This document shows positions 2,075 to 36,397 of a stretch of DNA of 42,786 nucleotides, one piece after another (the first letter of the stretch is position 1; each line of letters begins with the position of its first letter). The notes under the pieces were generated by a model. The model was not told where the DNA came from, did no database searches, and saw nothing but the letters and a program-made list of their open reading frames with translations. Source of the stretch: a virus; the IMG/VR virus record IMGVR_UViG_3300009788_000061, positions 1 through 42,786 of that record; one strand, written 5' to 3'. The translations under genes were made by a program, and so were the position numbers.

Positions 2075-3481
2075 TTAAGCCTTCCTGGAAGGCAACAGAA
2101 AGCTAAAAATCAACTGCCCGGCTTCAAAATAAACTTCGTCAAAATCGGTCTCAGCTTCAACTAATCGTTCTATTTCATGCTCAATAAGCAGCTGAATTCT
2201 TTTTTTCACGCTTTGAAAATCTTTATGTAAACTCAAAATATAGCTTGTTTTATCAGCGCGTTGATTAAATTCCGTTTCCCAAACTTCGAGACGTTTCTGA
2301 TAATCGTCCATGGCCTGATTATGTTCGTTTTCATATATCTCATATTTTTCATTCTCTCTTTCGAGCAAGCCTATCGCTAGTTTTTTAGCAGTCTCGATCT
2401 CAGCTAGTTTTTTAGCTGATTTTTCCGCATCTTCCTGACGTCGAATTTCTCCCTTAGACACCCAACCGTCCAGCAGCGCGCTATTTAATATTTTATTCGG
2501 CGATCTTATTTTATGATTCCGCTGATATTCCTCAAGTGCCTCTACCGCCGACGATATTTGACTGCGTTCATAGTCGGAATTCAGAACGATATTGGCTAAT
2601 CGAGACGAAACGTTCAACTTTAGAAGCCGCGCCAGAAGCCCTTCGTCATGAGGTTCAACCTCAAAATCTGGCGGTGGCGTGGCGGGTTCAGGAAGAGAAA
2701 GCGGGCGCTGGTTTTCGATTTTCAGAGGCTGGCGGACGAACTGCCCGAAAATCAGCAGTTTAACAGCTTTGTTTTTGCGGCGATCCATAGGATCTTTAAG
2801 AATTTCAAATTCAAAATAAGAGTTGGTTTTTGTATTAACTTCTCTTTGTGAAGCCAGCAAAACTCGTTTTCGAAAATCGGCTAATTGCGGATAAATATTT
2901 TCAGGAATACCCAAAGTCCGCCGCAATTTCAGCAGATCATAAACTCTAATATTCACATAACGACCGTTAATAATTTTTTCATGATATTTCGGCCTTGGCT
3001 CATTGTTTTTGCAGAATTCCAGAAAGCGGAATGAATGAGCGCATTTTAATTGTGCTACTTCTTCGTGAGAATAACTTGTAAAATTTTTCTGACGCTGCAA
3101 CAGATACGGCTTGAGATGCTCTGAAACGCGCAGAGTGACCTCATTTTTATTCCAATCGAAAAGCGGACTTTCTATCCAGGCGGACATTGTTAATGTTTCG
3201 CCGCCATGTTTTGGGTGATGACCTACCATTTCAATAATATTGCGTTGTAGCGACCGCAAAATTCTTTTTAACGTTTGCTTTTTTATTGTTTTATTTTGAG
3301 CTGATAATTTTAGTAAATCATATAACTCGTTGATACCAAAAGTATAACGCTCAAAACCCGAAGCTTTCGGATTAATTTTGGAGATCAAATTCAATACGAC
3401 TCTCTGCTCGTTGACGGATAAACGATAGTGAGCACGTTCCACTAAATCGTTGCATTTCACGATGATTTTTTTTTTATTCAT
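2075..3481 (-). CDS. plasmid-type replication initiator (Rep_3/RepB superfamily)
   Basis: The N-terminal 35 residues (CNDLVERAHYRLSVNEQR at 10-27, then LNLISKINP) match the typical opening of Rep_3-family initiators, which bind iterons as monomers and repress their own gene as dimers. The first 200 residues or so are winged-helix-like. The C-terminal third is long, charged and coiled-coil-like, making the protein (468 aa) longer than many relatives. I chose ATG 3481; an in-frame GTG at 3526 would add 15 residues that overlap the upstream inverted repeat. The gene faces away from the probable origin at 3596-3960. A phage carrying this initiator can be maintained as a plasmid. Confidence 0.8.
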   Translation of the reverse strand: MNKKKIIVKCNDLVERAHYRLSVNEQRVVLNLISKINPKASGFERYTFGINELYDLLKLSAQNKTIKKQTLKRILRSLQRNIIEMVGHHPKHGGETLTMSAWIESPLFDWNKNEVTLRVSEHLKPYLLQRQKNFTSYSHEEVAQLKCAHSFRFLEFCKNNEPRPKYHEKIINGRYVNIRVYDLLKLRRTLGIPENIYPQLADFRKRVLLASQREVNTKTNSYFEFEILKDPMDRRKNKAVKLLIFGQFVRQPLKIENQRPLSLPEPATPPPDFEVEPHDEGLLARLLKLNVSSRLANIVLNSDYERSQISSAVEALEEYQRNHKIRSPNKILNSALLDGWVSKGEIRRQEDAEKSAKKLAEIETAKKLAIGLLERENEKYEIYENEHNQAMDDYQKRLEVWETEFNQRADKTSYILSLHKDFQSVKKRIQLLIEHEIERLVEAETDFDEVYFEAGQLIFSFLLPSRKA

Positions 3482-3501
3482 ATTGATTAAAACGAAAAAC
3501 C

Positions 3502-3572
3502 CGGAATCTTTGAGCGATGCATACACATCTTCGCGATCCGGATAGCAGCCTGATCGTTCTTCAAAGATTCCG
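3502..3572. promoter_or_regulatory. inverted repeat upstream of rep, possible autoregulatory operator
   Basis: A perfect 12-bp inverted repeat (CGGAATCTTTGA at 3502-3513, TCAAAGATTCCG at 3561-3572) flanks 47 bp that include a smaller CGATC/GATCG pair. It lies directly upstream of the rep start at 3481. Rep_3-type initiators commonly bind inverted half-iterons in their own promoter. A large hairpin in the transcript is an alternative. Confidence 0.45.
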
Positions 3573-4625: not shown

Positions 4626-5264
4626 ATGGCTAAAAAGAGCAAAATGACGACGTACGCTTATATCAGAATCAGCAGCGATAAGCAGACAGTCGAGAATCAA
4701 AGATTTGAAATTCTCAAATTTGCAGATGAGAAAAAAACTCATATAGATGAATGGGTTGAGGAAACTGTCAGCGGTGTTAAAAAAATAGCGGATCGTAGGC
4801 TGGGCGAGCTTTTCAAATATATGAAAGAGGACGATGTTTTAATTGTCACGGAATTGTCCAGACTGGGCAGGAGCATGATGGAGGTGATGAGCGTCCTCCA
4901 TGACTGCATGGAGCGAGATATCAGAGTTTTTACTACAAAAGAACGCTATGAGCTTGGAAACAATGTCAATTCGAAAGTATTGGCCTTCGCCTTCTCCTTG
5001 GCGGCTGAGATAGAAAGAAACTTAATTTCAATGCGTACCAAGGAGGCCCTGGCAAGGCTGAAAAGTGAAGGAAAAAAGTTGGGCAGGCCAAAAGGGAAGT
5101 TGTCCAAAATCGTCAAACTGACAGGCAAGGACGCGGACATCAGAAGATATTTAGTTCATCAGGTCCCCGTTGCGGCTATCGCCAGGATGATGGGCGTACA
5201 CCGCGTGACACTCGTCAACTATATTAAAAGTAGAAAAATAACTATATTAAAAACAGATATATGA
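4626..5264 (+). CDS. serine recombinase (resolvase/invertase family)
   Basis: This 212-aa protein has the standard small serine recombinase layout. The N-terminal catalytic domain has YIRISSDKQ (R14, probable nucleophile S16) and ELSRLGRS (76-83, active-site arginines). The long E helix follows (AAEIERNLISMRTKEALA), then a GRPKGK linker near 155 and a C-terminal helix-turn-helix ending VHRVTLVNYIKSRKI. On a plasmid-like replicon the likely role is dimer resolution; DNA inversion is the alternative. Its TGA stop uses the first two bases of the insertion sequence that follows, so the last residues (about ITILKTDI) may be altered by that insertion. A 13-bp direct repeat (5217-5229, 5240-5252) lies in its last codons. 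Confidence 0.88.
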   Translation: MAKKSKMTTYAYIRISSDKQTVENQRFEILKFADEKKTHIDEWVEETVSGVKKIADRRLGELFKYMKEDDVLIVTELSRLGRSMMEVMSVLHDCMERDIRVFTTKERYELGNNVNSKVLAFAFSLAAEIERNLISMRTKEALARLKSEGKKLGRPKGKLSKIVKLTGKDADIRRYLVHQVPVAAIARMMGVHRVTLVNYIKSRKITILKTDI

Positions 5265-6339
5265 GTTACGCAGTTGAATAAATAAGGGTAATATTTTCTG
5301 TTTTTTAACGATTTTTAGAATATTTTCGGGTTTTCCCATGAATCCTCCTCGCTGTGACGAATACGACTATATTAATTTTTTTATCGCCGCTCAAAGAGCT
5401 TTCAGCTGCCTCGAAGCGGCGAGAGTTCAACCGAAAAAGGAAAACTCGCCCTCGCATGACTCAATAAACAGACTGCTCCACCGTCTTAAACCGGAGCCGG
5501 CTTCTTTATGGGAAGAAGCCGGACATTATATAACCCCTGGAAAAGGGTTCTTTGTCATTGATGATTCCACTCCGGATAAACTGTACGCTCGAAAAATAGA
5601 GCTGGTTAGCGGACATTGGTCTGGAAAACATCACGGAGTGCTTCAGGGAATTAATCTCGTCACCCTTCTCCGGACTGACGGAGACGCTCATATCCCATGC
5701 GACGTCCGTGTCCACTATAAACAACAGGATGGAAAAAACCAAAAACGATCACTTTCAAGATATGCTTTTCAAAGCGAAATCCAGAGGATTTTTCCCTGAA
5801 TGCGTTCTATTCGATTCATGGTGCGGCAGCCTGAAAAACCTTAAAACCGTTCGCTCGCTTGGCTGGAAATGGCTGGCTCGCTTCCATTCCAACCGCCTGG
5901 TCAACCCTGATGGAACAGGAAATATCCCTCTTTCGGAAGTTTCAGCCTCGGAAAACGGAACCGGAGTTCATCTTAAGGAATACGGCTTTGTTCTCGTGTT
6001 CAGGATTGTTTCTCAAAATGGAGACGCTGAATATTGTGTGACCAATGATCTTGACATGGACTTTTTCCGCCGCCTGAAACTTTCCGGCTACTCATGGAAT
6101 ATCGAGCATTACCACGGAGGTCTGAAACAGTTTTGCGGAGTTGAAAAGTCTATGGTTCGCTCCGCCAAGGGACGGAGAAATCATATCCTTCTTGCAATAC
6201 GGGCTTTTCTGCGTCTGGAAGTGTTTTCCATTAAAACCGGATACTCATGGTTTGAGGAAAAAACACAAATTATCAGAGAGGCTGTCAGAGCTTATCTGGA
6301 AAAGCCAATTTATGTTTTATAAACTCAACTGCGTAACTC
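5263..6339. mobile_element. insertion sequence with perfect 15-bp terminal inverted repeats
   Basis: GAGTTACGCAGTTGA at 5263-5277 is the exact reverse complement of 6325-6339. The enclosed 1,077 bp carry a single DDE transposase reading frame that is broken. No matching target duplication is seen in the flanks. The left end abuts the recombinase stop codon, and the right end lies 30 bp before the terminase small subunit. The transposase recalls IS701/IS4-like elements common in cyanobacteria, from memory. Confidence 0.85.
5338..6322 (+). pseudogene. DDE transposase, frame disrupted
   Basis: The first frame (5338-5799) opens MNPPRCDEYDYINF and holds the first catalytic Asp (FVIDDSTPDK) and HWSGKHHGV. 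The second frame (from about 5730 to 6322) holds the second Asp (VLFDSWCGS) and the Glu motif (NIEHYHGGLKQ), ending KPIYVL. The two join at a run of six A (about 5732-5737). Reading continues correctly only if one A is removed or the ribosome shifts +1, so this is probably a one-base insertion. Transcriptional slippage or a sequencing error are alternatives. A canonical -1 shift does not restore the frame. All three catalytic residues are otherwise present. Confidence 0.8.
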
Positions 6340-6369
6340 CTAAGATAAATAACTCCCTGACTCCCTGAC

Positions 6370-6939
6370 ATGGCCTATACAAAAAAAGAAAAGGAAGACA
6401 TAAAATTTGATTTTGAATCCGGGCAGTATACTGGTCAGGAAGTCGCCGCGCGCTGGAAAATGTCGCCGCAGACGCTAAAAAAATTCTCCGATGCGGGTGG
6501 TTGGATTCAAAATAATTTAGACGAGGAACTGAAAGGCCGGATCGAAAATGATGCGGCTGAACTTGTGATCAGCAAAGGTGCACGAAAATTAGCGGAGATT
6601 GTTAAAGAGCATCTTGAAGTAATTGGCTTAATAGATGACACATACAAGATCATGTTGATGATGCACATACAGGAGCTGAAAGAGTCGCAAGGCCTGATCA
6701 CCAAACTCGACGGCGAAAAATGGACTGCGAATTATAAAGCTCTCCAAATCGCCATTGACTCGTTCGACAAATCATTCCGGAGCAAACGCTTGGCCATGGG
6801 GCTAAAGGATACCGAAGCACCACAACAGATCATGAATTTCAATCTGACCAAAGTGGAAAACATCAAGGGGCTCTCCGACGAGGAGCTGGATTACATTATA
6901 GCGAACGAGGGAGAAGTTGAATCGAAAACAATTAATTAA
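6370..6939 (+). CDS. terminase small subunit
   Basis: This 189-aa protein sits directly before the large terminase and overlaps its start. Residues 1-45 form a helix-turn-helix-like region (FESGQYTGQEVAARWKMSPQ) as in small terminases that recognise the packaging site. The middle is helical and charged, suited to ring formation. The C-terminus ends in an acidic segment (LSDEELDYIIANEGEVE) of the kind that contacts the large subunit. No strong ribosome site is visible before its ATG; the upstream DNA is the IS flank with a CTCCCTGA tandem, so original regulatory DNA may have been lost. Assignment rests on order and general features. Confidence 0.75.
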   Translation: MAYTKKEKEDIKFDFESGQYTGQEVAARWKMSPQTLKKFSDAGGWIQNNLDEELKGRIENDAAELVISKGARKLAEIVKEHLEVIGLIDDTYKIMLMMHIQELKESQGLITKLDGEKWTANYKALQIAIDSFDKSFRSKRLAMGLKDTEAPQQIMNFNLTKVENIKGLSDEELDYIIANEGEVESKTIN

Positions 6940-8500
6940 ACAGGCGAGGCTGGAACGTGCGCGGCGGGAGAAGGCGCGGCGGGATATATTCAACTTCACT
7001 AAATACACTTTCCGAGCCTATAAGCGGGAAAACTGGCATCATAAGACCACCAGCGACTTTATTCAGAGAGGTATCGAAAAGGAACTTCTCAGACTGATGA
7101 TTTTCGCTCCTCCCAGACATATGAAGACGGAGAGCATGCAGCGAGGCTTCTCTTATGCGATTGGGCAAGATCATGATCTGAAACTCATCATGACGGCCTA
7201 CGGAGGCGACAAGGCTCATAAAATCTCCAATCAGATCAAAACGAATGTCAACGACGAGCCGTTTTTTAAAGTGTTTCCCAAGTTTCCCGGCATTAAGGGC
7301 CTGAATAAAATAAACAATTGGTCACTGGGAGATGAACACCGAGGAGAGGTATTGGCGGCGGGCGTGAACGGTCCTATCACCGGCGAGGGCTTCAATATCG
7401 GATATATCGATGATCCGGTGAAAACTCGTGCTGAGGCTGAAAGCCCAGCCTATCAGGAAAAAACATACGAATGGTACGGGGAAACATTCCTGACGCGGCA
7501 AGACGAGATGGACTCGGCCATTTTCATCACCAATACGCGCTGGAATAGAAAGGATCTCTGCGGCAAAATATTGGCGGAGGACGGGATCGCGACGTATAAC
7601 GGACGAATACCCGAAGATGGTTGTCCTGAATGGAATGGAGATCCAGCCGGCATCTGGCATATCCTTTGCCTGGTGGCGGAGATGGACGAAGCCTCCTGGG
7701 ACTGGCGACACCCTGACGATCCTCGTCAGATTGGGGAAGCCCTCTGGCCGGAGAGGTTTCCAATGCATTTTTTGGAGCAATTCAAGAAAAACAAATACAA
7801 CTGGGCGTCAAACTATCAACAGAGGCCGCAGGCGAAGGGCGGAAACCTCATCAACCGCACTTGGTTCGGTGTCGTGGATAAAATGCCTCCCGGTGCTAAA
7901 ATCATCCGCTTCTGGGATTTTGCGGGCACTCCCAAGTCCTCCACTAAAAAAAACGATCCTGATTTCACGGCTGGCAGTCTGGTTGGCTTCAAGGACGAAA
8001 AACTGTACATAGGGGACGTGGTAGCCACCAGAGACACGCCGTTCGAGGTTGAAAAACTCGTCAAACAGACCGCATTGCTGGACGATAGTAAGTATGGACA
8101 AGTCCGGCAATATTGGGAGGAGGAAGGCGGCGCGAGCGGCAAACATAGCTCAGCGCATTATAATCAGCTCCTGTCGGCTCATTGGCGAGAACCATACCGA
8201 GTCGGCAAAAACAAAGAATTTTACATTGATCTCCTGGCCAACAAAGCGGAGGCCGAAGAGGTTTTCCTGGTCGATGGCAAATGGCTGCATGAAGTTCATG
8301 ATGGCAATACATTCCTGGACGAAGCGGAGGAATATCCGAAAGGGCGTCATGATGACAGAATAGACTCGGCGGCGAAGGGCTGCTATATTCACACGGGCGA
8401 TCCACCGACGCTTGCCGACGCGCTGGAAACGGCGATAAAAAGAGGAGATAAACAATTGCTGGGGATAGGTAAATCTTCTCATCTGAGATTAATCGGATAG
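6917..8500 (+). CDS. terL: terminase large subunit (ATPase/nuclease)
   Basis: This 527-aa motor protein packages DNA into proheads. The ATPase half has a Walker A-type loop APPRHMKTE (64-72, with Met where Gly is usual), Walker B IGYIDD (161-166) and a coupling motif ITNTRWNR (204-211). The nuclease half begins near RFWDFAGT (Asp334) and continues with NDPDFTAG (Asp349) and a late acidic RHDDRIDS motif. I use a TTG start at 6917 because GAGGGAGAAG lies just upstream and the next residues read naturally; it overlaps the small subunit by 23 bases. Length and motifs match phage large terminases of the PPRHGKSE type. Confidence 0.93.
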   Translation: MNRKQLIKQARLERARREKARRDIFNFTKYTFRAYKRENWHHKTTSDFIQRGIEKELLRLMIFAPPRHMKTESMQRGFSYAIGQDHDLKLIMTAYGGDKAHKISNQIKTNVNDEPFFKVFPKFPGIKGLNKINNWSLGDEHRGEVLAAGVNGPITGEGFNIGYIDDPVKTRAEAESPAYQEKTYEWYGETFLTRQDEMDSAIFITNTRWNRKDLCGKILAEDGIATYNGRIPEDGCPEWNGDPAGIWHILCLVAEMDEASWDWRHPDDPRQIGEALWPERFPMHFLEQFKKNKYNWASNYQQRPQAKGGNLINRTWFGVVDKMPPGAKIIRFWDFAGTPKSSTKKNDPDFTAGSLVGFKDEKLYIGDVVATRDTPFEVEKLVKQTALLDDSKYGQVRQYWEEEGGASGKHSSAHYNQLLSAHWREPYRVGKNKEFYIDLLANKAEAEEVFLVDGKWLHEVHDGNTFLDEAEEYPKGRHDDRIDSAAKGCYIHTGDPPTLADALETAIKRGDKQLLGIGKSSHLRLIG

Positions 8501-8535
8501 ATTTTATAAAAAGTTGGTGTTATTTATGAGAGGCG

Positions 8536-8564
8536 GGCGGGAGCCCCGCCGGAGCGGGGAAAGT
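8536..8564 (-). repeat. degenerate CRISPR-repeat-like hairpin
   Basis: The 16-bp core CCCCGCCGGAGCGGGG (8544-8559) has the same stem, loop size and following AA as the better match at 8590-8618. The outer bases have diverged. The core-to-core distance is 53 bp, so a spacer-like stretch of 25 bp would lie between the two, shorter than the 32-33 bp usual for type I-E. Confidence 0.4.
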
Positions 8565-8589
8565 TCAGCGGTTTAAGTAATAGATACAC

Positions 8590-8618
8590 GGTTCATCCCC
8601 GCTGGTGCGGGGAACTTT
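8590..8618 (-). CRISPR. solitary type I-E-like CRISPR repeat
   Basis: On the plus strand this reads CGGTTCATCCCCGC then TGGTGCGGGGAACTT. It differs at three of 29 positions from the reverse complement of the E. coli type I-E repeat as I recall it, and keeps the GC stem and the 8-base handle region ATGAACCG on the minus strand. No cas gene is present. It lies between convergent terL and a decayed gene. The hairpin is followed by a T-rich stretch, so it could also act as a terminator for terL. Repeat mimics on phages can act as RNA anti-CRISPRs; whether this one does is untested. Confidence 0.45.
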
Positions 8619-8634
8619 TCCGGTTTTTTTGGTA

Positions 8635-9209
8635 TTAATCATCCTCCGAGTATCTCAAATTAAAATAGGATTTCAGTTCTTTTATAAGCCTGTTTTCAGT
8701 ATCGGCGTATTGTTTTTTCATTTTATCCAATGCCTGGAACGTGGGTTGCGGAAACTTTGCCAGACGTCCGTGGGTATTTCCTGCACCGGTTTAAATAGTA
8801 CCGTGTAAGCCCACTTCGGAGTGGTCGAGACTACCAAACAATAACTGTCTAGTTCGTAATATTCGCGGTTTTTTTCGATGATTGTTTTTTGATCTTTTTT
8901 AGTGAGGTTGTCCCATTTTGGATTCTGGGACAACTTTTCAAGACTCCCCTGAACATCGACACTAGCTCTGAATGTTTCATTCGGGTGTAAGAGCGCGTGA
9001 AGCAACAAAAGATTCGGATCTTTTATATACGTTACTCCCGCTTCGCCTTCCGCGAAATCCGTCGAAATAATTTTCAGTTTCGGCCAGATCCGGAAGGGTT
9101 GCTTTTTTGTATATCTGCATCGGAATTGTTTCAGCCAGCGGACAATATGTCGCCGGTGAGCTGTTGCGGATTTCGCGGAGGCTGGTATACTCAGTGCACG
9201 TAACATCAA
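8635..9209 (-). pseudogene. decayed gene with apparent frameshifts
   Basis: The longest open frame (9209-8718, 163 aa, TTG/ATG start) looks natural only in its middle, from about DFAEGEAGVTYIKDPN to PTDVWQ. Its N-terminal 45 residues are Arg-rich and off-frame in character, while an overlapping frame reads YTSLREIRNSSPATYCPL and IPMQIYKKATLPDLAE. Its last ten residues also look off-frame: another frame reads FPQPTFQALDKMKKQY and continues to a stop at 8635. At least two frameshifts would be needed to restore one protein of about 190 aa. I do not recognise the family. Sequencing error is possible but would need two events. Confidence 0.5.
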
Positions 9210-9255
9210 ATCATATGAATGTTTTTCCTACCGAACACACTGAAAATAAATCAAT

Positions 9256-10761
9256 ATGCCGCCTCCAATCGTAGACGCTAAAGGGAATCCTTATTATCGC
9301 GATGAGAACGGTGAATACCGCGCTGACGGCTATTTTAATCCGGATACAGGCTATGGCGGTGCGGATGACAGCATTGATAATACTCAGTTTGCTCCTTCGC
9401 CCCAGCTCGATCAGAATGAGCTATCCGCTCAGTATGAAAGCAACTGGGTAGTGTCGCGGGGGATTGAAGCTCCGGTCAATGATCGATTGTCGAAGGGGAT
9501 TCTTTTTATTACAAATGATGATGCATCAGGTAATCGGAGACGACAACTCAAAAAACTTGACGTTGATATTAAAAAAATAGCGATGTGGAATCATTACCTG
9601 GAAGCTGCGTATTGGGATCGGCTTTACGGTGGTTCGATTATTTATTTCGATTATGGAGATGATAATGATTTCGGGATTGATCTGGATTCGCGAGGAGTTA
9701 AAGTCAAAAGGAGTGTTAATTTCGACATTAAAGAATCGCAGCGCGGTATCCCTAACAAAGTCTGGGTTGTCGACCGTTGGTTTGCATTTCCCGCATCGTA
9801 TTATCTCCCTGAAATTCACGGATACGACCATCCGAAACTGGGAGAACCAGAGATCTATTCGCTGACGCTTTTTACTACCGGTTATGCTCGGGTGGTTTTC
9901 GCGCATGAATCACGTTGCATAATTTTCAAGGGATTACCGCTTTCGATTCGTCAAAGAGCAGCGAATCATATGTGGGGCAATTCTGTTCTTCAGCGTGTAA
10001 ATGACGCGGTGAAATATTTCGGAATCAGCATGAAGGCCATGGCTGATACGTTTGAAGACTTTAATTATAAAAGTCTTCAAATAGAGAATTTACAGGAACT
10101 GATAGAGAAAGGGGCCTGGGAGGTCATCGGCAAAATGATTGGCATGGCCGCGAAAAACGCTCACAATCAAAATATTGGCATTCATGGCGGGGAAACAAAG
10201 CTGTTAAAACAAGCAACGACGGTGACGGGCTTGCCCCAGATGGCGCAAATTATGACGAATGTTGTTTGCGGAGCTTGGAATATTCCCTATTCGAGATTTT
10301 TTTCGGCGGAAGGTGGAGCCTTGGCCGGGACTGCGGCGGAAACCGACGTCAAAAACTATCACGAGAGTCTGCGTTTCGATCAGGAACATAAGGATCGTTC
10401 ACGTTTGGAAAAGATGATCTGGCTTTTGGGATATGATCCGGAAGACTTTCCTTTCCTTTTTCCACCGCTCAAGGATTTGGATTTGAAAGAGCGAGTGGAA
10501 GCTGAAAAAAGCAAAGTTGAGATGTACCAAATGGCTATAGACGCCAATATGATTCACCCGGATGAGGCCGCAATATCGATGTGGTCGACTCCGGAGGCGA
10601 ATTTGGAGCAGACTATAATTGATTTTGACGGGCGGGAGAGTATGGAGCCTGATGATGAGGAAACGGAGCTGGCGGAAGATCCTTCCTCGGAAGAGGACGA
10701 AAAGCGGACGGATATGAAAAAAGAGGATACGCCAACAATTTTTAAAGTGATCATAAAATAG
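9256..10761 (+). CDS. portal protein (DUF1073-like)
   Basis: This 501-aa protein follows terminase, as portals do. The pattern fits the DUF1073 portal family: an early segment about a displaced helix (YESNWVVSRGIEAPVNDRLSKG), then WNHYLEAAYWDRLYGGSIIY, a central region on a stem helix, and the late block WNIPYSRFFSAEGGALAGTA followed by YHESLRFDQEH. The C-terminal 60 residues are acidic and probably disordered. Portals form the dodecameric gate for DNA. Some database relatives are labelled by an Acb1 anti-CBASS domain fused to this family; I see no such added domain. The normally adjacent Mu F-like gene is displaced by 4.7 kb of inserted genes. Confidence 0.82.
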   Translation: MPPPIVDAKGNPYYRDENGEYRADGYFNPDTGYGGADDSIDNTQFAPSPQLDQNELSAQYESNWVVSRGIEAPVNDRLSKGILFITNDDASGNRRRQLKKLDVDIKKIAMWNHYLEAAYWDRLYGGSIIYFDYGDDNDFGIDLDSRGVKVKRSVNFDIKESQRGIPNKVWVVDRWFAFPASYYLPEIHGYDHPKLGEPEIYSLTLFTTGYARVVFAHESRCIIFKGLPLSIRQRAANHMWGNSVLQRVNDAVKYFGISMKAMADTFEDFNYKSLQIENLQELIEKGAWEVIGKMIGMAAKNAHNQNIGIHGGETKLLKQATTVTGLPQMAQIMTNVVCGAWNIPYSRFFSAEGGALAGTAAETDVKNYHESLRFDQEHKDRSRLEKMIWLLGYDPEDFPFLFPPLKDLDLKERVEAEKSKVEMYQMAIDANMIHPDEAAISMWSTPEANLEQTIIDFDGRESMEPDDEETELAEDPSSEEDEKRTDMKKEDTPTIFKVIIK

Positions 10762-10772
10762 ATATACTGTTA

Positions 10773-10788
10773 GTAATTATTATTACTG
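10773..10788. repeat. 16-mer repeat, copy B (inverted)
   Basis: GTAATTATTATTACTG, the reverse complement of the other three copies, 11 bp after the portal stop codon. With copy C at 10931 it forms an inverted pair flanking about 140 bp of AT-rich DNA in which I see no gene. Confidence 0.7.
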
Positions 10789-10930
10789 ACCACTTCTTGT
10801 TTTAGGCACTCTCTGATATTGTTCGCTTTTCTTATACTTTTCATTAGAATAAAGGTCTGTGATTTTATTGTTTTTAAATATTTTTTTTGGTCGGTGATTT
10901 CGTTTTAACGAAGTGGAACACGGAGGCGTT

Positions 10931-10946
10931 CAGTAATAATAATTAC
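10931..10946. repeat. 16-mer repeat, copy C
   Basis: CAGTAATAATAATTAC, 12 bp before the ATG at 10959. It is in the same orientation as copy D (13197), and the 2.27-kb repeat-to-repeat span holds five genes including a tyrosine recombinase. Confidence 0.7.
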
Positions 10947-10958
10947 ACACAAAATGTT

Positions 10959-11138
10959 ATGGGTGAAGAAAACGCGAAGGCTTGTCTTGAATGCGGGGCT
11001 ATGTTCGAGCTTACATCTGACAAAGAAAAGAGCGTGAAGGAGCGTCAGAGGCTTTTTCCTGACACCGCTGAGGCTTTGGAGCAGGAATTGATTTGTTGCG
11101 AGGATTGTGCAATTCCAAAGATGATAGATTTGTTATGA
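10959..11138 (+). CDS. small zinc-ribbon-like protein (59 aa)
   Basis: I start the gene at ATG 10959 (MGEENAKACLECG) because upstream in-frame codons cross the 16-mer repeat. It has a CLEC pair near residues 9-12 and a CCEDC cluster near 48-52, spaced as in small zinc-binding modules. A charged helix lies between. The last codons overlap the next gene's start (ATGA), implying coupled translation. No known family recognised. It is the first gene of the segment bounded by repeats C and D. Confidence 0.55.
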   Translation: MGEENAKACLECGAMFELTSDKEKSVKERQRLFPDTAEALEQELICCEDCAIPKMIDLL

Positions 11139-11416
11139 AATATCAAGAAATCGCTTGGACGGAAATGCGGCCGGATGTGTATGGCGGAGATACATGCGAT
11201 AAAATTATACCGCAGTTCTGTAATTTTTCCGATGGGGATAAAGACGAGGATACATCAGACGATGTCACCTTTCTTGCTAAGAATTTTCCCGCTGGAACTA
11301 AAATTACAGTTAAAGTTCCCGAGTGTCCAAAGTGCCAAATGGACGCAATGCTTTGTCAGGAATTAGGAGATTGTGACTTTGATTGGAAAAAATGGACCGA
11401 AGAAAACTATTCGTAA
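11135..11416 (+). CDS. small Cys-containing hypothetical protein (93 aa)
   Basis: It starts at ATG 11135, overlapping the previous stop. The product is acidic (a DGDKDEDTSDD-like stretch near the middle) and contains CPKC plus scattered Cys residues (Cys near 20, 28 and in MLCQELGDC), suggesting a metal site. No signal peptide or membrane helix is seen. The pairing with another Cys-rich small gene suggests a joint accessory function. Family not recognised. Confidence 0.5.
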   Translation: MKYQEIAWTEMRPDVYGGDTCDKIIPQFCNFSDGDKDEDTSDDVTFLAKNFPAGTKITVKVPECPKCQMDAMLCQELGDCDFDWKKWTEENYS

Positions 11417-11417
11417 T

Positions 11418-11870
11418 ATGAAATTTTTAGGACATGCTGTCGGGGCTGGCGTCGTAGGGATCATCGCGACGGCGTTGACGTTGGAGGCAGGGAATTCTTT
11501 GAGGATGGCGGCGGAAATTGGTGGCGTATTATGGCTGGGTGGTCAAGTTCCTGATTTGGATATAGCATCAATCCCCGCGAAATGGTTTGGCAGACTGGGC
11601 TTCTTGGCGGCGGGACTATTGTTCGGTTACGGTTTTTTAGCGCGAGAGCATGGCGCGATTGCAATTAGCGCGGTAATCGGACTGATGGCCTTGCTGCTGA
11701 TGGCCATACAGCATCGGGGGCCGTTGCATAAATACTGGTTGCCGGCTGCATGTGTTTTTATGAGCCTTTTTCAGGGAAATTCTTTGATGATGGCCTTCGG
11801 ACTCGGAATTATAGTGCATCTGATGCTTGATAAAATCTTTCCCTGGCAATTCAGAGGTTGGTGGCTTTGA
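11418..11870 (+). CDS. membrane protein, YdjM/DUF457-type metal-dependent hydrolase family
   Basis: From ATG 11418 the 150-aa product is largely membrane-embedded, with four or so hydrophobic helices. It carries the sequence marks of the YdjM/DUF457 family: GHAVGAG near the N-terminus, QVPDLDIAS and HRGPLHKYW. The His and Asp residues are those expected to bind metal. The family is annotated as inner-membrane metal-dependent hydrolases of poorly known function, some SOS-regulated. Here it lies in the accessory segment between portal and Mu F-like genes. The activity in this phage is unknown. Confidence 0.72.
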   Translation: MKFLGHAVGAGVVGIIATALTLEAGNSLRMAAEIGGVLWLGGQVPDLDIASIPAKWFGRLGFLAAGLLFGYGFLAREHGAIAISAVIGLMALLLMAIQHRGPLHKYWLPAACVFMSLFQGNSLMMAFGLGIIVHLMLDKIFPWQFRGWWL

Positions 11871-11873
11871 GCA

Positions 11874-12188
11874 TTAAAATGCCCATTGCCCGTCTTTGTT
11901 TAGGTCAATAGGCGCGGCCGGACGTTTTTCTGGAAGTGGCGCGGCCTCGACTTTATCACACCGTTTTTCAACTATTGTTATTTTATTGTCGCCTCGGTAA
12001 TAAAATCCTTGTTGAAATTCGTCTGATGTTACGGGCGTGGGAATACTATATTTCCACCATGTTGCGTTTTTTGATATACTCAAAGCGGCGTCTAGATCTT
12101 GGCAAACTATTCTCGCCCCAGTCTGGGAACTTTCTAAAACCGCTTTAAATGTTGCCCCTAATTTTTCTTTAAAAAATATTGGTTTCAT
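11874..12188 (-). CDS. hypothetical protein (104 aa)
   Basis: It starts at ATG 12188, directly after the recombinase stop (TAAATG), so it is expressed with that gene. The product is a small soluble protein with a Trp pair (TWWKYSIPTP) and a Pro-rich C-terminal part (PLPEKRPAAPIDL). No helix-turn-helix or other motif is evident. By position it could be a recombination directionality factor, but nothing in the sequence supports that directly. It converges with the DUF457-type gene. Confidence 0.45.
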   Translation of the reverse strand: MKPIFFKEKLGATFKAVLESSQTGARIVCQDLDAALSISKNATWWKYSIPTPVTSDEFQQGFYYRGDNKITIVEKRCDKVEAAPLPEKRPAAPIDLNKDGQWAF

Positions 12189-13133
12189 TTATACCTTTGT
12201 CTTTAAAATTGAACTTACCGGAATAACCTGTTTGGAATAATCGTAATATTGACGCATTGTCTGAGTGCTTTTATGCAGAGTGGCGTTGAGCACTTCCGTC
12301 AGCGAATCCTCGCGTTCGGCGGCCCATCTGATAAAGCTGGCGCGAAAACTCATGAAGCTGATCGAATCATCAATTCCCACTTGGCGGGCGTGAACTTTCA
12401 GCGTTTTGTTCATGACCTGCGGATGAATTGTAAAAAGAGGCTCGTCGGGATCCTTGGTTCCTCTGAAGTTCTTGAGAATTTTTTTCAGCTCCGGAATCAG
12501 TTCCAACTCATTTTTCCATTGCGCTTTCCTGATCACGATTCTGTTGTTCTTAAAGTCCACGTCATTCCAGACCACATTTTTGCATTCAGCGAAAGTGCGT
12601 CCTCCTCCCATGACGGCCAGACATGCCAGCGGGCGGACTTGCGGATTTTTGGCATGTTTTAACTGTTCCTTGAGCTTTTTCCATTCTTCTATTGTGATAG
12701 TCGGGGCTGAACTGCGAATTGCCTCTTGATCCGGATTCTTGTATTTTAGTGCCGGGACAACAGGTAAAATCCAGGCTTGAGTTTCCGCCAGGTGATTGAG
12801 AAAATTTTGAATAGTGCTGATTCTACGCCGCAGCGTCCGGGAACTGTCGCCGGCGTTGCTTCTTTGAGTCATAAACATCTGGCACAAATCATTGAGTTTG
12901 GACAGTGACTCAACGGCTAGGTCATTCAGTGTTTTAATACTATGCTCTGTTAAAAAAGTTAAAAACTTCTTCAGATCGTTTTTTTTGGCGGTTCTGGTCT
13001 CGGCTTTAGAAAAATTATCTTTTATGTAAATCGACGCGAATGTTGTTAAAGAGGTCAGCGTTATTAACTTTTCTTCAGGCGTTTCAATTAAACAGTTCTG
13101 AAAATCATAAACTTCTTCTTCAGCATTGTTCAT
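12189..13133 (-). CDS. tyrosine recombinase, atypical active site
   Basis: This 314-aa protein has a core-binding domain (about 27-125, SAM-like helical) and a catalytic domain. I can place the first catalytic Arg in GGGRTFAE (R179), Lys in RKAQWKNE (K203), the second Arg in MSFRAS (R264), the last His in LHKST (H287) and the Tyr in RQYYDYS (Y296 or Y297). The usual HxxR box reads MSFR, so its His is replaced by Met, and the GHxx box is weak. It may still be active, as this His varies in the family. It starts 63 bp from 16-mer copy D, as expected if a recombination site lay beside the recombinase. Confidence 0.82.
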   Translation of the reverse strand: MNNAEEEVYDFQNCLIETPEEKLITLTSLTTFASIYIKDNFSKAETRTAKKNDLKKFLTFLTEHSIKTLNDLAVESLSKLNDLCQMFMTQRSNAGDSSRTLRRRISTIQNFLNHLAETQAWILPVVPALKYKNPDQEAIRSSAPTITIEEWKKLKEQLKHAKNPQVRPLACLAVMGGGRTFAECKNVVWNDVDFKNNRIVIRKAQWKNELELIPELKKILKNFRGTKDPDEPLFTIHPQVMNKTLKVHARQVGIDDSISFMSFRASFIRWAAEREDSLTEVLNATLHKSTQTMRQYYDYSKQVIPVSSILKTKV

Positions 13134-13196
13134 TTTATTTTTTATCAGAATAAGTTGCAGGGACTTTGTTTTTCAGGAATACTTGCCGTAGTGGCT

Positions 13197-13212
13197 CAGT
13201 AATAATAATTAC
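13197..13212. repeat. 16-mer repeat, copy D
   Basis: CAGTAATAATAATTAC in the 119-bp gap between the divergent recombinase (start 13133) and fibre-like gene (start 13253). It is the distal bound of the recombinase-bearing segment that begins at copy C. Confidence 0.7.
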
Positions 13213-13252
13213 ATAAATCGTAATTTATCGCAATCGTTTAGAGGAATCAAAA

Positions 13253-14341
13253 ATGAGTAAAAATCAGAAAGAGCTTGTTTTATCGTCTGAAGCAATACAC
13301 GCGATTGCTCAGGAAGCTGTCAACATATTAAAAAAACAGCTTCTGCTGGATGATCAGATTGAAATCGCTCCAGATCAATTGAATCAGCTGGCGGAGAAAA
13401 TTTCTTCGCGCATGGACGCGACTGTCGATTATGACAAGATTAGACATCAGTTCAAAAATTATGAACTGACGGATCAGGACCGAGTAGATATAGCTGAAAA
13501 AGCCTTGTTGGATCTGGATTTATCGGACGATATCAGGGCCACGCTGGCGCGGAGCTTTGTTTCTAAATCGTTCTTTAATGAAAAAATCGGGGCGTTGAGG
13601 CAATTCGTCCAGGACAACAAAGTCCGAAAAATCACTGCGGGCATTTCCGGAAAGGAGATGATTGCGGAAATCAATAAAGTCCTGGGGACTGATTGGCAGG
13701 ACGGTGGAGGAGGAGACGTCGTCAGCGTGGATGGTCGTGTTGGAGTAGTGACTCTGGGTGATCTTTATGAGCTTGTTTTCGCAAAAAACACAGCTTTTAA
13801 TAAAGACTTTGGCAGCGGAGCTGGCGACGTGGCCGAAGGTTCACTTTTAGCTGCGAAAATAACCGGGCCTGGTTCTTCAACTGTTGATCAGATAGCGATC
13901 GCGTCGGATGTCAATGGTAATGTCAGTTTTTCTCCTGTCACTATTGATCCATCAACCAGAAAAATGGCGGGCTTGGGGGTTACAGAGCAGGACGGAACTC
14001 TTTATCTGAAAACAAATCAATTCGTCAGGTGGACGACTACCGGGCTATCTGGCGGGACAATAAAAGGCGATATGTTTGTAGATACAAATTCTTTTTTGTA
14101 TCTTCGAATCGGCACTAATGTCAAAATATCGATATCTAGTACTGGGTTGGTCACTGTGACTAACGATATGAAAGTTAGTCAAAATTTAGACGTGATCGGT
14201 GAACTGGATGTGTCCGGCAGTTTATTTACAAATAGCCCCAGCGGGGCAACGCAGGCGGCGGCGGGCGCGGCGGCGGGCGAGGAGTGGATTACATCAGGGC
14301 ATGCAACTTTGCCCGATAATGTAAAAATGATAGGAGTTTAA
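13253..14341 (+). CDS. fibre-like or virion surface protein
   Basis: This 362-aa protein has a GAGGAATC ribosome site before its ATG. The N-terminal 130 residues are helical and charged. A Gly-rich hinge (DGGGGDVVSVDGRVGVVTLGD, about 160-180) resembles linkers in tail fibres. The C-terminal half is beta-rich with short repeats. The final motif (DVIGELDVSG... to GATQAAAGAAAGEEW and HATLPDNVKMIGV) is a common end of phage fibre and appendage proteins. It lies between the two tyrosine recombinases in the middle of the head module, so it is probably a transferred gene. A head-attached fibre is possible. Receptor unknown. Confidence 0.6.
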   Translation: MSKNQKELVLSSEAIHAIAQEAVNILKKQLLLDDQIEIAPDQLNQLAEKISSRMDATVDYDKIRHQFKNYELTDQDRVDIAEKALLDLDLSDDIRATLARSFVSKSFFNEKIGALRQFVQDNKVRKITAGISGKEMIAEINKVLGTDWQDGGGGDVVSVDGRVGVVTLGDLYELVFAKNTAFNKDFGSGAGDVAEGSLLAAKITGPGSSTVDQIAIASDVNGNVSFSPVTIDPSTRKMAGLGVTEQDGTLYLKTNQFVRWTTTGLSGGTIKGDMFVDTNSFLYLRIGTNVKISISSTGLVTVTNDMKVSQNLDVIGELDVSGSLFTNSPSGATQAAAGAAAGEEWITSGHATLPDNVKMIGV

Positions 14342-14342
14342 A

Positions 14343-15359
14343 TTATACAAAACTATACTTCAACGTGGCGTTGTGGCCGGCTTCCGATTTATCGTATTCT
14401 TCGAGTTGTTTTAAATTACTATGTCCTGTGATTTTCATAATATCAGAATCATGAACTCTTAACTCTTTCAAACGAGTAACTAATGTCACTCTCATGACGT
14501 GCGGAGTAACCCTGAAGGGGATACGTGCGTTTTTGCCGGCTTTGACAAAAACCAAAATCAGCGGATTATTGCAAATTTTTTTACCCGTCCTGGTGACGAA
14601 AACAAGATCATCGCCAGTACGGTCGCCTATATGACGTCGTAAGTCGCGCATAATGTGAGAAGGATAATTAATAACCGTTACTTTTATAGTTCCGCCTGTT
14701 TTGCTTTGTCTGAAAGTAATTTGTTTTTGCAGTAAATTAACGTTTTTCACTGTCAAACTCAAAACCTCGTTCGTTCGTTTTCCCCCCTGCAGCATAACTT
14801 TAGCAAGCAGAGCATACCGCTCATCAAGCTTTTCCAACTCCCGCATAAACAGTTTAGTCTGCCTGATAGATAATGATTTCGTTTTGACTTTGTCTCTAAC
14901 CTTGAAAAAGGTTTTATTGATTCCTGTTTTTTTTATAATTGCTTTTTGAATAATTCCGCCCGTCTGACGGTCAAGAAATCCGGTAAATGAGACATAAGCG
15001 GCGGCGCGGGCTTGCCTTGTGGCTTCGCTCCAGGGTACGTAGTTTTTAACGGAATCAATAACAATTTCATGATTAAACATGCTGAACTGCTTCAGAGTAC
15101 AGTTAATAATCACAAATTGCAGTTCCTCCAGGCGTTTAAATGCATATCGATAAGCCTTCGCTGTATGGAAATTCAGGGTTGACAGCCAATTATCGAGGGC
15201 TTCTTGTAATGAAATTTTGTGGAGTTGGCCCGCAATGTATTCATAACGCGCTCTCGTGGCTTCGAACTGCTCCATGTAATTTGGAGTGCGATTATTAGAC
15301 TGTGCGGCGATCAGGTCTAATGGAGATTGGTCATCTGGTCCGGGGATTAAATCATTCAT
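14343..15359 (-). CDS. tyrosine recombinase resembling chlamydial plasmid integrases
   Basis: This 338-aa protein has a complete active-site set: R195 (GGKRTNEV), K220 (RQSKTGG), H287 and R290 (TPHVMR), H313 (TGHSN) and Y322 (EEYDKS). Segments such as KVMLQGGKR, RVTPHVMR, DSDIMKITGHSN and YDKS match what I remember of the chlamydial plasmid proteins pGP8-D and pGP7-D, including the N-terminal FSMFNHE and ARAAAYVSF regions. Those proteins are plasmid-borne integrase homologues. The gene is convergent with the fibre-like gene and starts 18 bp from a perfect palindrome (15377-15414) that is a natural candidate binding site. It may resolve dimers, integrate the replicon or invert DNA. Confidence 0.88.
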   Translation of the reverse strand: MNDLIPGPDDQSPLDLIAAQSNNRTPNYMEQFEATRARYEYIAGQLHKISLQEALDNWLSTLNFHTAKAYRYAFKRLEELQFVIINCTLKQFSMFNHEIVIDSVKNYVPWSEATRQARAAAYVSFTGFLDRQTGGIIQKAIIKKTGINKTFFKVRDKVKTKSLSIRQTKLFMRELEKLDERYALLAKVMLQGGKRTNEVLSLTVKNVNLLQKQITFRQSKTGGTIKVTVINYPSHIMRDLRRHIGDRTGDDLVFVTRTGKKICNNPLILVFVKAGKNARIPFRVTPHVMRVTLVTRLKELRVHDSDIMKITGHSNLKQLEEYDKSEAGHNATLKYSFV

Positions 15360-15376
15360 GTTTTCCTTTATATAGA

Positions 15377-15414
15377 AATTTAGTTATCATATGATTTTCT
15401 ATGATAACTAAATT
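15377..15414. repeat. perfect 14-10-14 bp palindrome beside the integrase (loxP-like layout)
   Basis: AATTTAGTTATCAT (15377-15390) and its exact reverse complement (15401-15414) flank a 10-bp spacer. The architecture resembles tyrosine recombinase core sites such as loxP (13-8-13). It is 18 bp upstream of the integrase start codon, so an operator is also possible. No T run follows, so it is not a typical terminator. No second copy was found by eye. Confidence 0.6.
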
Positions 15415-15517
15415 ATTACACATAAAGACATAGTGAAACGAATTTCTGACGAACTATTAATAATAATCCATTGATTTTTTTGATTTACTTGTTTTAAGAT
15501 AAGTATTAAAATCATCT

Positions 15518-16534
15518 ATGCCTCAAAAAATTTCCGAACGCAGAAAAAAGTTGCTTCGCGCCCGGGCTAAAACAGGGCGACGTCCTCTTGATCCAATTCA
15601 TCCTGATTTGCTCGCGGCGGCTTGGTCTAAAAAGCTGCGGACTGAAGTCGGCAGGGGATTCGAGTTAGTCAAAAAACATTTGTTTCCGGTTCTAAGAGAA
15701 GACGACTTGGACGGCTTCGGAGGCGCGGTCAGGACGGACATAGACGATGACGCGGATATTATAAATCCAGTCATCAACAAAATTTTAGATCGGTATTTCG
15801 GCGGCATGTCCAGCCTGGAAAAGCCCAATCTGGGCAGATACTCCTCGCTATTAGCCAAACAATTAGTTCAACCTATGCAGAAGCAGGTTGACAGGCATCA
15901 CAAGACGCAGTTTTCGAGGACATTTAAAAAAATCGCCGGCGTTGATCCTTTGCAGTTCGAGCCTGAACTAAGCGGTTTTCTGGAAGTGGCCGGCGACCAG
16001 AACGTGAATAAAATAGTTTCTCTGAACAATTCTTATTTCGATACGATCAGAGAGAAAACCAATCAGGCTCTGAGGAAAGGCACGAGCGTCAGTGAACTGA
16101 CGGCAGAAATTACGGACCTGACTAAAACGACTCAAAGCCGCGCCAACCTGATCGCGATCGATCAGGTTCAAAAACTCAATTCCGACCTGGAGAGTCAGCG
16201 TCAGCAGAATAATCATATAAAACGTTATATATGGAGAACTCGTCGCAATACTCGCGTCAGGTCAAAAGCGAACTCAGACGGAACAGATGATCACGCCGGA
16301 CTAGAGGGAGCTGTATTTGATTGGAACTTTCCGCCTATAACCGTTTTGGCGGGGAAACGAGCCGGAGAGCGAAATCATCCAGGGCAGGATATAAACTGTA
16401 AATGTTGGGCGGAGCCGGTGATCGATGATCTTCTGGGGAGACGATCCAGGGCTTTGGAAGCGGCGGAACTTAAAACACAAAAACTGATTGGCGAGGGAAG
16501 AATTCCCGGCTATACTCTACCAAAAGCGGCTTAA
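15518..16534 (+). CDS. Mu F-like minor head protein
   Basis: This 338-aa protein matches the Mu F/SPP1 gp7 head morphogenesis family. It has a helical, charged N-terminal region. The conserved C-terminal part contains ARTD-like family marks: KTTQSRANLIAIDQVQKLNS, YIWRTRRNTRVRSKAN, DDHAGLEGAVFDW and the closing NHPGQDINCKCWAEPV. These proteins are injected or packaged minor head components, normally encoded right after the portal. Here the portal is 4.7 kb away. Its stop overlaps the next gene start (TAATG). Confidence 0.88.
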   Translation: MPQKISERRKKLLRARAKTGRRPLDPIHPDLLAAAWSKKLRTEVGRGFELVKKHLFPVLREDDLDGFGGAVRTDIDDDADIINPVINKILDRYFGGMSSLEKPNLGRYSSLLAKQLVQPMQKQVDRHHKTQFSRTFKKIAGVDPLQFEPELSGFLEVAGDQNVNKIVSLNNSYFDTIREKTNQALRKGTSVSELTAEITDLTKTTQSRANLIAIDQVQKLNSDLESQRQQNNHIKRYIWRTRRNTRVRSKANSDGTDDHAGLEGAVFDWNFPPITVLAGKRAGERNHPGQDINCKCWAEPVIDDLLGRRSRALEAAELKTQKLIGEGRIPGYTLPKAA

Positions 16535-16770
16535 TGAATGTAATTGAAATAGTCCATAAATACCTAGAAGACAATAATTTCGATGGGCTTTGCGGGGAAG
16601 AATGCGGCTGCGATTTGGAAGAGTTAGCTCCCTGCGATTCCGAGTCCGCGCTGTCTTGCGTTCCTGGATATAAAGTTCCCAAAACCTCTGATGATGGCGC
16701 AGGCCCAGGCGATTGGGAGATGCGCACCACTCGTGAAAATATCGATCAAACGCATGACTCTCCACTATGA
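16534..16770 (+). CDS. small Cys-rich phage protein (78 aa)
   Basis: The start overlaps the Mu F-like stop. The product opens MNVIEIVHKYLEDNNFDGLC and has a cysteine cluster GEECGCDLEELAPC, a pattern I have seen in small conserved proteins of many phages, usually without a known role. The cluster could bind zinc. The C-terminal half is low in structure. It is the first gene of a short accessory run between head genes. Confidence 0.6.
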   Translation: MNVIEIVHKYLEDNNFDGLCGEECGCDLEELAPCDSESALSCVPGYKVPKTSDDGAGPGDWEMRTTRENIDQTHDSPL

Positions 16771-16849
16771 TGATGGATTGATATACGATTGGGAAGAACT
16801 TGACAAAACGCCTGAAAAATCGAGCATAAAGAAGCTCAGTGTATATTAA
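16733..16849 (+). CDS. possible small gene (38 aa), GTG start
   Basis: A 38-codon frame overlaps the end of the Cys-rich gene and reads MKISIKRMTLHYDDGLIYDW and onwards to SIKKLSVY. A GGGAG ribosome site lies 11 bases before the GTG at 16733; an internal ATG at 16754 is an alternative start. It occupies most of the gap before the next gene and its composition is protein-like, but the short length limits confidence. Confidence 0.35.
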   Translation: MKISIKRMTLHYDDGLIYDWEELDKTPEKSSIKKLSVY

Positions 16850-16871
16850 ATAAAAAATCCTGAGAAAAACA

Positions 16872-17891
16872 ATGCCTACGTCCAGACAAAAAATTGAACT
16901 TGGTAAACCTTTCACGGTTGCCGTTCCGAATTCCCGCGAAAAAGATTTCGAAGTCATAAATTTGCAAAATCATAATTTTGACCTTTTGATTTGCAAAATT
17001 CTGAACAGCACTTCTTATGCCCCGCCGACCGCATACATCACAGATCAGACGAACAATATCATAAAGATCAGATTCGATGATTCTCGTCTGAATTTGAATA
17101 CCCCTTTGGAGCTGATTGTACAGGGAGTGGTTAACGAAAAAATTGAGGTGGTTCAAAAGAATGTTCTGCTTGACGGAGAAAAAACCGCTGCGGCAGTTCA
17201 AAAAGCAGCTTCCGGAAGCTGGAAAACTATAAAATTCATTTTTTGGTCATTTTTTTTCCTATCAACATTTTTTTATTTCATAAAAAGTACCACCTTCGGC
17301 GATTTTATAATTGACGTCTGGAGTCGCTTTAATGCCGCTCAAGTTATAAAAATGACCGACGAAATGGATCCTCGGATTCTGACGAACAAACATCATGTTT
17401 ATGAAACAGCAGCTTTTACTGAGTTTAACGCGTTGTATAAACGAAATTTCGGTTCCGGCAAAAAGCTGAAAGACCTTTATCGATTCGCCGGCAACAATTT
17501 CTTTGTGACGGATGATCTGATCCAGAATAAAGATGGTTCCTTTATGCTCGTTACAAAGAGTCAGGCGGAAAAATTTTGCGAGATGATCGCCGGACGGCTT
17601 CTTTCAGTCGAGGAACTCGGTGCTTATTTAGCGGGACAATACTTGACGATTGAAAATTTCATCTGGCCGATAAGTCTGCGCGCCGCAGTCCCGGAATGGA
17701 GCGGGACAAAATATCGTTGGGACGACTACTGGCTATATTTGAAAAACGCGCCGGTGGAAAATATAAAAGACATTGACGAGGATGATATAAAGTTGAGTCC
17801 TGATAAAAAATTCGTAGTGGCCGACGACGGCGACGTGAAAGCGGCTTTTCGATGCGGCTTTGATGGCAACATATTTTCACCGGCGATATAA
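16872..17891 (+). CDS. membrane-anchored protein with a possible FGE/C-type-lectin-like C-terminal domain
   Basis: In this 339-aa protein, residues 1-100 form a beta-rich domain (GKPFTVAVPN ... LELIVQGVV). A strong hydrophobic segment at about 117-135 (FIFWSFFFLSTFFYFI) is a single membrane helix. The C-terminal domain (about 205-339) has SQAEKFCEMIAGRLLSVEEL, then AAVPEWSG, a Trp/Tyr-rich stretch and the end AAFRCGF, an order reminiscent of formylglycine-generating-enzyme-like and C-type-lectin-fold domains. That match is suggestive only. The catalytic Cys of true FGE cannot be confirmed. It could be a surface or inner-membrane ligand-binding protein. Its position among head genes is unusual. 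Confidence 0.5.
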   Translation: MPTSRQKIELGKPFTVAVPNSREKDFEVINLQNHNFDLLICKILNSTSYAPPTAYITDQTNNIIKIRFDDSRLNLNTPLELIVQGVVNEKIEVVQKNVLLDGEKTAAAVQKAASGSWKTIKFIFWSFFFLSTFFYFIKSTTFGDFIIDVWSRFNAAQVIKMTDEMDPRILTNKHHVYETAAFTEFNALYKRNFGSGKKLKDLYRFAGNNFFVTDDLIQNKDGSFMLVTKSQAEKFCEMIAGRLLSVEELGAYLAGQYLTIENFIWPISLRAAVPEWSGTKYRWDDYWLYLKNAPVENIKDIDEDDIKLSPDKKFVVADDGDVKAAFRCGFDGNIFSPAI

Positions 17892-35680: not shown

Positions 35681-36397
35681 TTAACCACATCCGGAGCTTT
35701 CTCCGCAAAACGTACAAACCTGACAAGTTCCAGCCGGCGCGAACAATCTCTCTCCGCAGTTATGGCATCTATTCAAATCGTTTTTTCCTAATAAATGCTC
35801 GGTTATGCGGGTAAACTGATCCGCCACCTGATTAAAATGCCTGGCGTGAAACTTATATTTGAGAACGAGTTCTTCGATAGAAAGTTTGCGTTCCATCATC
35901 CAGGCGAATACCGCCGACTTTTTTATATTGAAAATTGGCATCTCCTGATAAAAATGCCTGAAGACCGAGCTGAATTCCTGGCATTGATTGCCGGTCGTCT
36001 GATTCATTATCAAAACTATCTGTCGAGGAGCTTTATATCTGCATACTTCCTTTATAAAATCCAGCGAGGTTTGCAGATTTTCAGTATAAGGCAAGATTGG
36101 GATCAGGACGAATTGAGACATTTTCAGAGCCACAGACGCTCTTTTGTCCGGATATCCGCCAAAATCGAAAATGGTCGGCGATTCATCCACAACTTCCAGT
36201 ATTGATTGATTTTTGGAGAGGATTGTATATTTCTCTTGGGGCAGGACTTGTTCCACCGCGCTGAGCCGATCATTCGTTATTATTTTATAACCATGCGTCA
36301 GCGCGAGATTGAGCGCGATCGCTGTTTTGCCAACGCCGCCTTTGGCGTTGAAAATCATCAGACTTTTGACCTTGGACGAGAAAGTTTTTTCAAGCAT
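35681..36397 (-). CDS. parA: ParA-like partition ATPase with C-terminal zinc ribbon
   Basis: The Walker A motif NAKGGVGKTAIALNLAL lies near the N-terminus, followed by a Walker A' region (FDFGGYPDKRASVALKMSQF) and the late LIPILPYTENLQTSLDFIKE and QIVLIMNQT blocks of small ParA/MinD-like ATPases. The last 30 residues carry six Cys (CHNCG, CQVCTFCG, then a final Cys), a zinc-ribbon-like addition I do not associate with ordinary ParA. I start at ATG 36397 because AAAAGG lies 8 bases upstream; GTG 36406 is an alternative. It overlaps the upstream gene by 8 bp. The protein would position plasmid copies on the nucleoid. Confidence 0.82.
   Translation of the reverse strand: MLEKTFSSKVKSLMIFNAKGGVGKTAIALNLALTHGYKIITNDRLSAVEQVLPQEKYTILSKNQSILEVVDESPTIFDFGGYPDKRASVALKMSQFVLIPILPYTENLQTSLDFIKEVCRYKAPRQIVLIMNQTTGNQCQEFSSVFRHFYQEMPIFNIKKSAVFAWMMERKLSIEELVLKYKFHARHFNQVADQFTRITEHLLGKNDLNRCHNCGERLFAPAGTCQVCTFCGESSGCG

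Follow-up and report, generated by a model that had tools for sequence, protein, structure and literature searches.

A solitary type I-E CRISPR repeat between terL and portal in a phage genome, a candidate RNA anti-CRISPR

In this study we analysed a stretch of viral DNA of 42,786 nucleotides (IMG/VR record IMGVR_UViG_3300009788_000061), which we call the window, and found that a 29-mer on its minus strand is, judged by its letters, a genuine type I-E CRISPR repeat. According to the criteria of SRUFinder, which we approximated by re-implementation, the element is a solitary repeat unit and a candidate type I-E RNA anti-CRISPR (Racr). Our favoured reading, which we hold with modest confidence, is that this phage-borne unit would act as a Racr-like decoy, and it is the reading that fits precedent best. 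The repeat and its immediate companions are the following:

8589-8617, minus strand: intact type I-E CRISPR repeat (solitary repeat unit), AAGTTCCCCGCACCAGCGGGGATGAACCG
8536-8562, minus strand: degenerate second repeat, with TTCCCCGC, stem and GCGGGG kept and the handle lost, CTCCCGCC replacing ATGAACCG
8563-8588, minus strand: spacer-like linker TGTATCTATTACTTAAACCGCTGAAC, 26 nt long when counted up to the second copy's TTT, the distance between the 29-mers being 24 nt

The intact repeat consists of a TCCCCGC/GCGGGGA stem with a loop of 4 nt and the 8-nt handle ATGAACCG, and the folding energy of its hairpin is -14.3 kcal/mol (z -3.6). An earlier note had placed it one base too far along, at 8590-8618, and had counted about three differences from the E. 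coli repeat; this count agrees with the 3 of 29 positions at which the 29-mer departs from the type I-E repeat of E. coli K-12. The 3' 27 bases of the 29-mer, GTTCCCCGCACCAGCGGGGATGAACCG, are letter-identical to repeats of chromosomal arrays. This 27-mer is found at a single site in the record with 0 mismatches and at no other site with up to 3, while none of 100 dinucleotide shuffles of the window contains a match even when 3 mismatches are permitted. A blastn-short search of the repeat against the window gives an E-value of about 4e-11. A scan of Rfam returned only weak matches, with no family above the gathering score, and the exact 27-mer has no further match in IMG/VR beyond the window.

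Our scan of GTTCCCCGCNCCAGCGGGGATGAACCG over about 85,000 species genomes resulted in 36 stretches, many of which are long arrays. In Andreprevotia an array of 9 copies has the exact 27-mer as its unit; one Vandammella array contains several copies of it, and contigs of Paracoccus and Pantoea have it singly. Such agreement (27 of 27 bases, against 0 of 100 shuffles) goes beyond chance GC hairpins, the possibility against which the earlier note had wanted the repeat to be searched. The Vandammella genome has both cas6e and cse1, and among the genomes with such repeats that were checked, Cas6e (PF08798) is present in five of six and Cse1 (PF09481) in three of four. In Andreprevotia sp. IGB-42, whose array lies at 1887-2340 and further along its contig, neither of these two families was detected. 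The Andreprevotia repeat CTGTTCCCCGCACCAGCGGGGATGAACCG is identical to the 29-mer of the window at 27 of 29 positions. The two 5' bases of the 29-mer (AA) differ from all chromosomal repeats found, and a search of the chromosomal genomes with the 28-mer that includes the leading A gave no exact match, so that the 5' bases of the window repeat are distinct from those of the compared chromosomal repeats.

The second hairpin proposed in the earlier note, with the same stem architecture and 53 bp away, is real. The sequence CCCCGCNNNNGCGGGG occurs at exactly two sites in the window (8544-8559 and 8597-8612; expected 0.00), and the second copy lies 53 bp downstream of the intact repeat on the same strand, measured from stem to stem. 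Preserved in it are the 5' part and, letter for letter, the CCCCGC/GCGGGG stem; the 8-nt handle is gone. In the orientation of the repeat it matches at 18 of 27 positions (16 of 27 on the opposite strand), which makes it the second-best site in the window, and when the local 100 nt downstream are shuffled this score is reached in 2 of 2000 cases. The lost 3' end resembles the worn terminal repeats of viral arrays on four other contigs (L016, L032, L035 and L041). This compressed second hairpin is the sole unusual part of the element, and only mildly so. The gap, given earlier as 25 bp, is 24 nt between the 29-mers and is indeed too short for a normal spacer.

For the classification as a solitary unit we used thresholds from Camara-Wilpert et al. 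2023 (PMC10651486). These require that a known CRISPR repeat be matched with identity and coverage of 90% or more, that the bit score reach 41.1 and the position be intergenic, that no further complete repeat lie within 100 bp and that the flank identity not exceed 70%. The window repeat matches the Andreprevotia array repeat as described above, scores 54.0 bits with blastn-short, although the settings of the published pipeline may differ, and is intergenic; its best flank similarity is 65.5%, contributed by the second hairpin and near the limit. The spacing speaks in the same direction. Among 540 repeat-to-stem intervals in the chromosomal loci compared, 484 measure 61 bp and 41 measure 62 bp, and none is below 59 bp, so that a spacing of 53 bp is incompatible with a normal type I-E array. 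On viral contigs, with the present window excluded, three of 65 intervals are below 59 bp (36, 52 and 58 bp). A one-sided Fisher test gives p = 0.001, or p = 0.011 if only intervals below 55 bp are counted. These p-values serve as a guide only, since the viral set includes contigs that nearly duplicate one another and perhaps also cellular DNA that was misassigned.

Compressed type I-E pairs were returned only twice by the scan of all IMG/VR, on contigs L012 and L027. Both pairs resemble the window in their intergenic position and too-short spacing, and both differ from it in having nearly intact copies and an unrelated genome. The L012 pair, 52 bp apart, lies between tail genes. Around its repeats are major head, tail terminator and tape-measure genes, and the contig is a phage. 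In L027 (1273-1335) two near-identical repeats 36 bp apart are situated between convergent genes. Six further IMG/VR contigs have a single type I-E repeat without a partner, which shows that viral repeats of this kind are not unique to the window. L003, with a P22-like neighbourhood, has one intact repeat with a divergent hairpin on either side, 63 bp ahead of it and 50 bp behind it. We also observed a viral contig, L045, with three type I-E-like repeats at 2752, 4491 and 7093, about 2 kb apart and forming no array.

The repeat pair is flanked by the ORF ends at 8500 and 8635, the neighbouring genes being convergent:

6917-8500, plus strand: terL, terminase large subunit (phrog_38, 2.8e-73), convergent with the broken gene
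8635-9120, minus strand: frameshifted gene of unrecognised family, its end 17 nt upstream of the repeat
8616-8630, plus strand: T-rich stretch downstream of the hairpin, a possible terL terminator tail

The broken gene can be followed on the minus strand from about 9120 to its stop codon at 8635-8637 through two frame switches, that is two apparent frameshifts, and the repeat starts 17 nt past this stop codon on the same strand. Searches of Pfam, PHROGs and NCBIfam assigned it to no family and to no known anti-CRISPR, and tblastn against phages, plasmids and IMG/VR found no relative. As the gene is frameshifted, the locus may be decaying. No cas or defence families were found among the ORFs scanned, which were part of those in the window, in line with the lack of cas genes claimed earlier. 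A scan of the region for sigma-70-like promoters found none. Between terL and portal the repeat occupies a slot for accessory genes. Three phages with TerL proteins 55-71% identical to that of the window have other material after terL and no such repeat, which argues that the element is cargo, and neither a conserved terL terminator nor a part of the packaging operon. A close TerL relative was absent from 398 Pseudomonadota genomes, where the best matches have about 31% identity. Relatives of the TerL, Rep, TnpB and transposase proteins are nearly all below 60% identical or scattered across taxa, and they do not allow a host to be assigned.

The main alternative in the earlier note was a plain transcription terminator between convergent genes, in which the terL transcript stops at the hairpins and their resemblance to a CRISPR repeat is incidental or secondary. 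The convergent intergenic position and the presence of CTTTTCCGGTTTTTTT behind the stem on the plus strand are what one would expect of it, and a simple scan gives a terminator-like site at 8608-8622. But this site is a different stem, weaker than the repeat hairpin, and the region has about as many terminator-like sites as shuffled sequence (2 against 1.3 +/- 1.2). In the intrinsic-terminator check the repeat stem is followed by AACTTTTCCGGTTTTTTT; on the minus strand there is no T-run directly behind either hairpin. A terminator furthermore requires neither the GTT nor the ATGAACCG flanks, for which we estimate a chance match, given the stem, of about 1e-6, and in the relatives L046 and L047 no hairpin is seen by eye after terL. 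We therefore regard a terminator as unlikely to be the whole explanation: it leaves the flank identity unexplained and is not conserved in relatives. A terminator role on the plus strand, where the T-run is present, could nevertheless coexist with a decoy.

It is also conceivable that the phage has, or had, a repeat-spacer-repeat that uses the type I-E system of the host against rival phages, of which what remains is a shortened spacer with a worn terminal repeat. We consider such a degenerate mini-array quite unlikely. Viral mini-arrays that target related viruses are known (PMC6858448; PMC11656645), and the window shares with them two repeat-like units in one orientation and the absence of cas genes; the decay of the second copy at its 3' end is that of the viral terminal repeats mentioned above. 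It differs from them in having one intact repeat only, its second copy reaching just 18 of 27, a 24-nt spacer instead of the typical 32-33 nt, and no target found. An exact search of IMG/VR with the linker gave no match, and a seed-type search with every sixth base variable gave 4 matches where about 7 are expected by chance on a rough estimate. The best of these reaches 23 of 28 and none has an AAG-like PAM in front. Nor does the linker match elsewhere in the window's own genome. Matches at chance level and without a PAM lend no support to inter-phage targeting. The last alternative, to which we give very little credence, is that recombination brought in a piece of a host CRISPR array, which now has no role and is a neutral relic or landing pad. 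The neighbouring gene with its two apparent frameshifts and the worn second copy would fit such decay, and it has been suggested that solitary repeats serve as sites for integration into arrays (PMC10651486). However, the 27 informative positions of the intact copy are all unmutated while the copy beside it has decayed, which suggests retention, and there is no recognisable host flank or leader.

How might a decoy function here? Cas6e cleaves after GCGGGG, for which it needs the stem and the cleavage position, and the canonical crRNA is 61 nt long. Both the stem and the cleavage position are retained in the intact repeat. Transcription of the minus strand would probably occur by read-through from the broken gene, whose transcript would present upstream RNA followed by a stem-loop, and the latter may be bound and cut by the Cas6e of the host. 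If Cas6e cuts both hairpins, the following product is predicted:

8544-8596, minus strand: predicted crRNA-like fragment of 53 nt with a proper handle, AUGAACCG

This fragment would be 8 nt below the normal crRNA length. Either the upstream product or this handle-linker-hairpin fragment might hold Cas6e and Cas7 without a useful guide, and their sequestration would leave fewer working Cascades. The precedents come from Camara-Wilpert et al. 2023 (PMC10651486), where a type I-E system was inhibited by two Racrs of this subtype, RacrIE1 and RacrIE2. In the same study the stem-loop of RacrIF1 was bound and cut by Cas6f, its upstream product nucleated a Cas6f-Cas7f filament without Cas5f and Cas8f, and mutations in its stem abolished inhibition (PMC10651486); the arrangement expected of the broken-gene transcript is that of RacrIF1. 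An acr-racr pair on one bicistronic transcript was also described (PMC10651486), and the layout of broken gene and repeat in the window resembles it without proving the same arrangement. Like the Racrs and solitary units of that study, the window has one intact intergenic repeat of a defined subtype on a virus, on the same strand just after a gene and without cas genes. Unlike them it has a worn second hairpin 53 bp on, and its upstream gene is frameshifted and of unrecognised family. The decoy reading of the earlier note thus holds as far as a genuine solitary type I-E repeat, no cas genes seen and a spacing foreign to arrays are concerned, and the decoy activity itself is argued from precedent. 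One might speculate further, with a small chance of being right, that the compressed pairs of the window (53 bp), L012 (52 bp) and L027 (36 bp) represent a distinct decoy design. Cutting at two Cas6e sites would then free a crRNA-like fragment that is too short and has a proper handle, leading to a truncated and untargeted Cascade, whereas the bound product of a single-repeat Racr has no handle.

The window as a whole looks like a phage-plasmid. It combines a plasmid-type Rep3 initiator (2075-3526), a resolvase (4626-5264) and a ParA-like protein (35681-36406) with head and packaging genes. An insertion sequence with terminal inverted repeats GAGTTACGCAGTTGA lies upstream of the terminase genes (5263-6340), with its transposase split across two overlapping ORFs, and a TnpB-family gene (37506-38654) is about 59% identical to plasmid-borne homologues of Proteobacteria. 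The virion gene block contains two tyrosine recombinases. An AT-rich near-palindrome, GTAATAATAATTAC(TGA), is found in both orientations at 10773, 10930, 13196 and 179, and its copies flank the tyrosine recombinase gene at 12189-13133 on both sides as possible recombination sites. In L046, whose TerL is 69% identical, the portal-to-fibre block (6649-9672, corresponding to 9256-14341 of the window) is inverted relative to terL, and one end of the inverted block falls directly behind terL. Because of this inversion a recombinase site was considered and rejected: no inverted repeat of at least 12 bases joins 8450-9256 with 10700-16900.

The Racr class is already known from phages. To it the window contributes a clear type I-E candidate, from a group of phages about which little is known, and it shows one place where such elements are located, an accessory slot that separates terL from portal. 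The worn and close second hairpin raises the question of how viral mini-arrays and single-repeat decoys interconvert.
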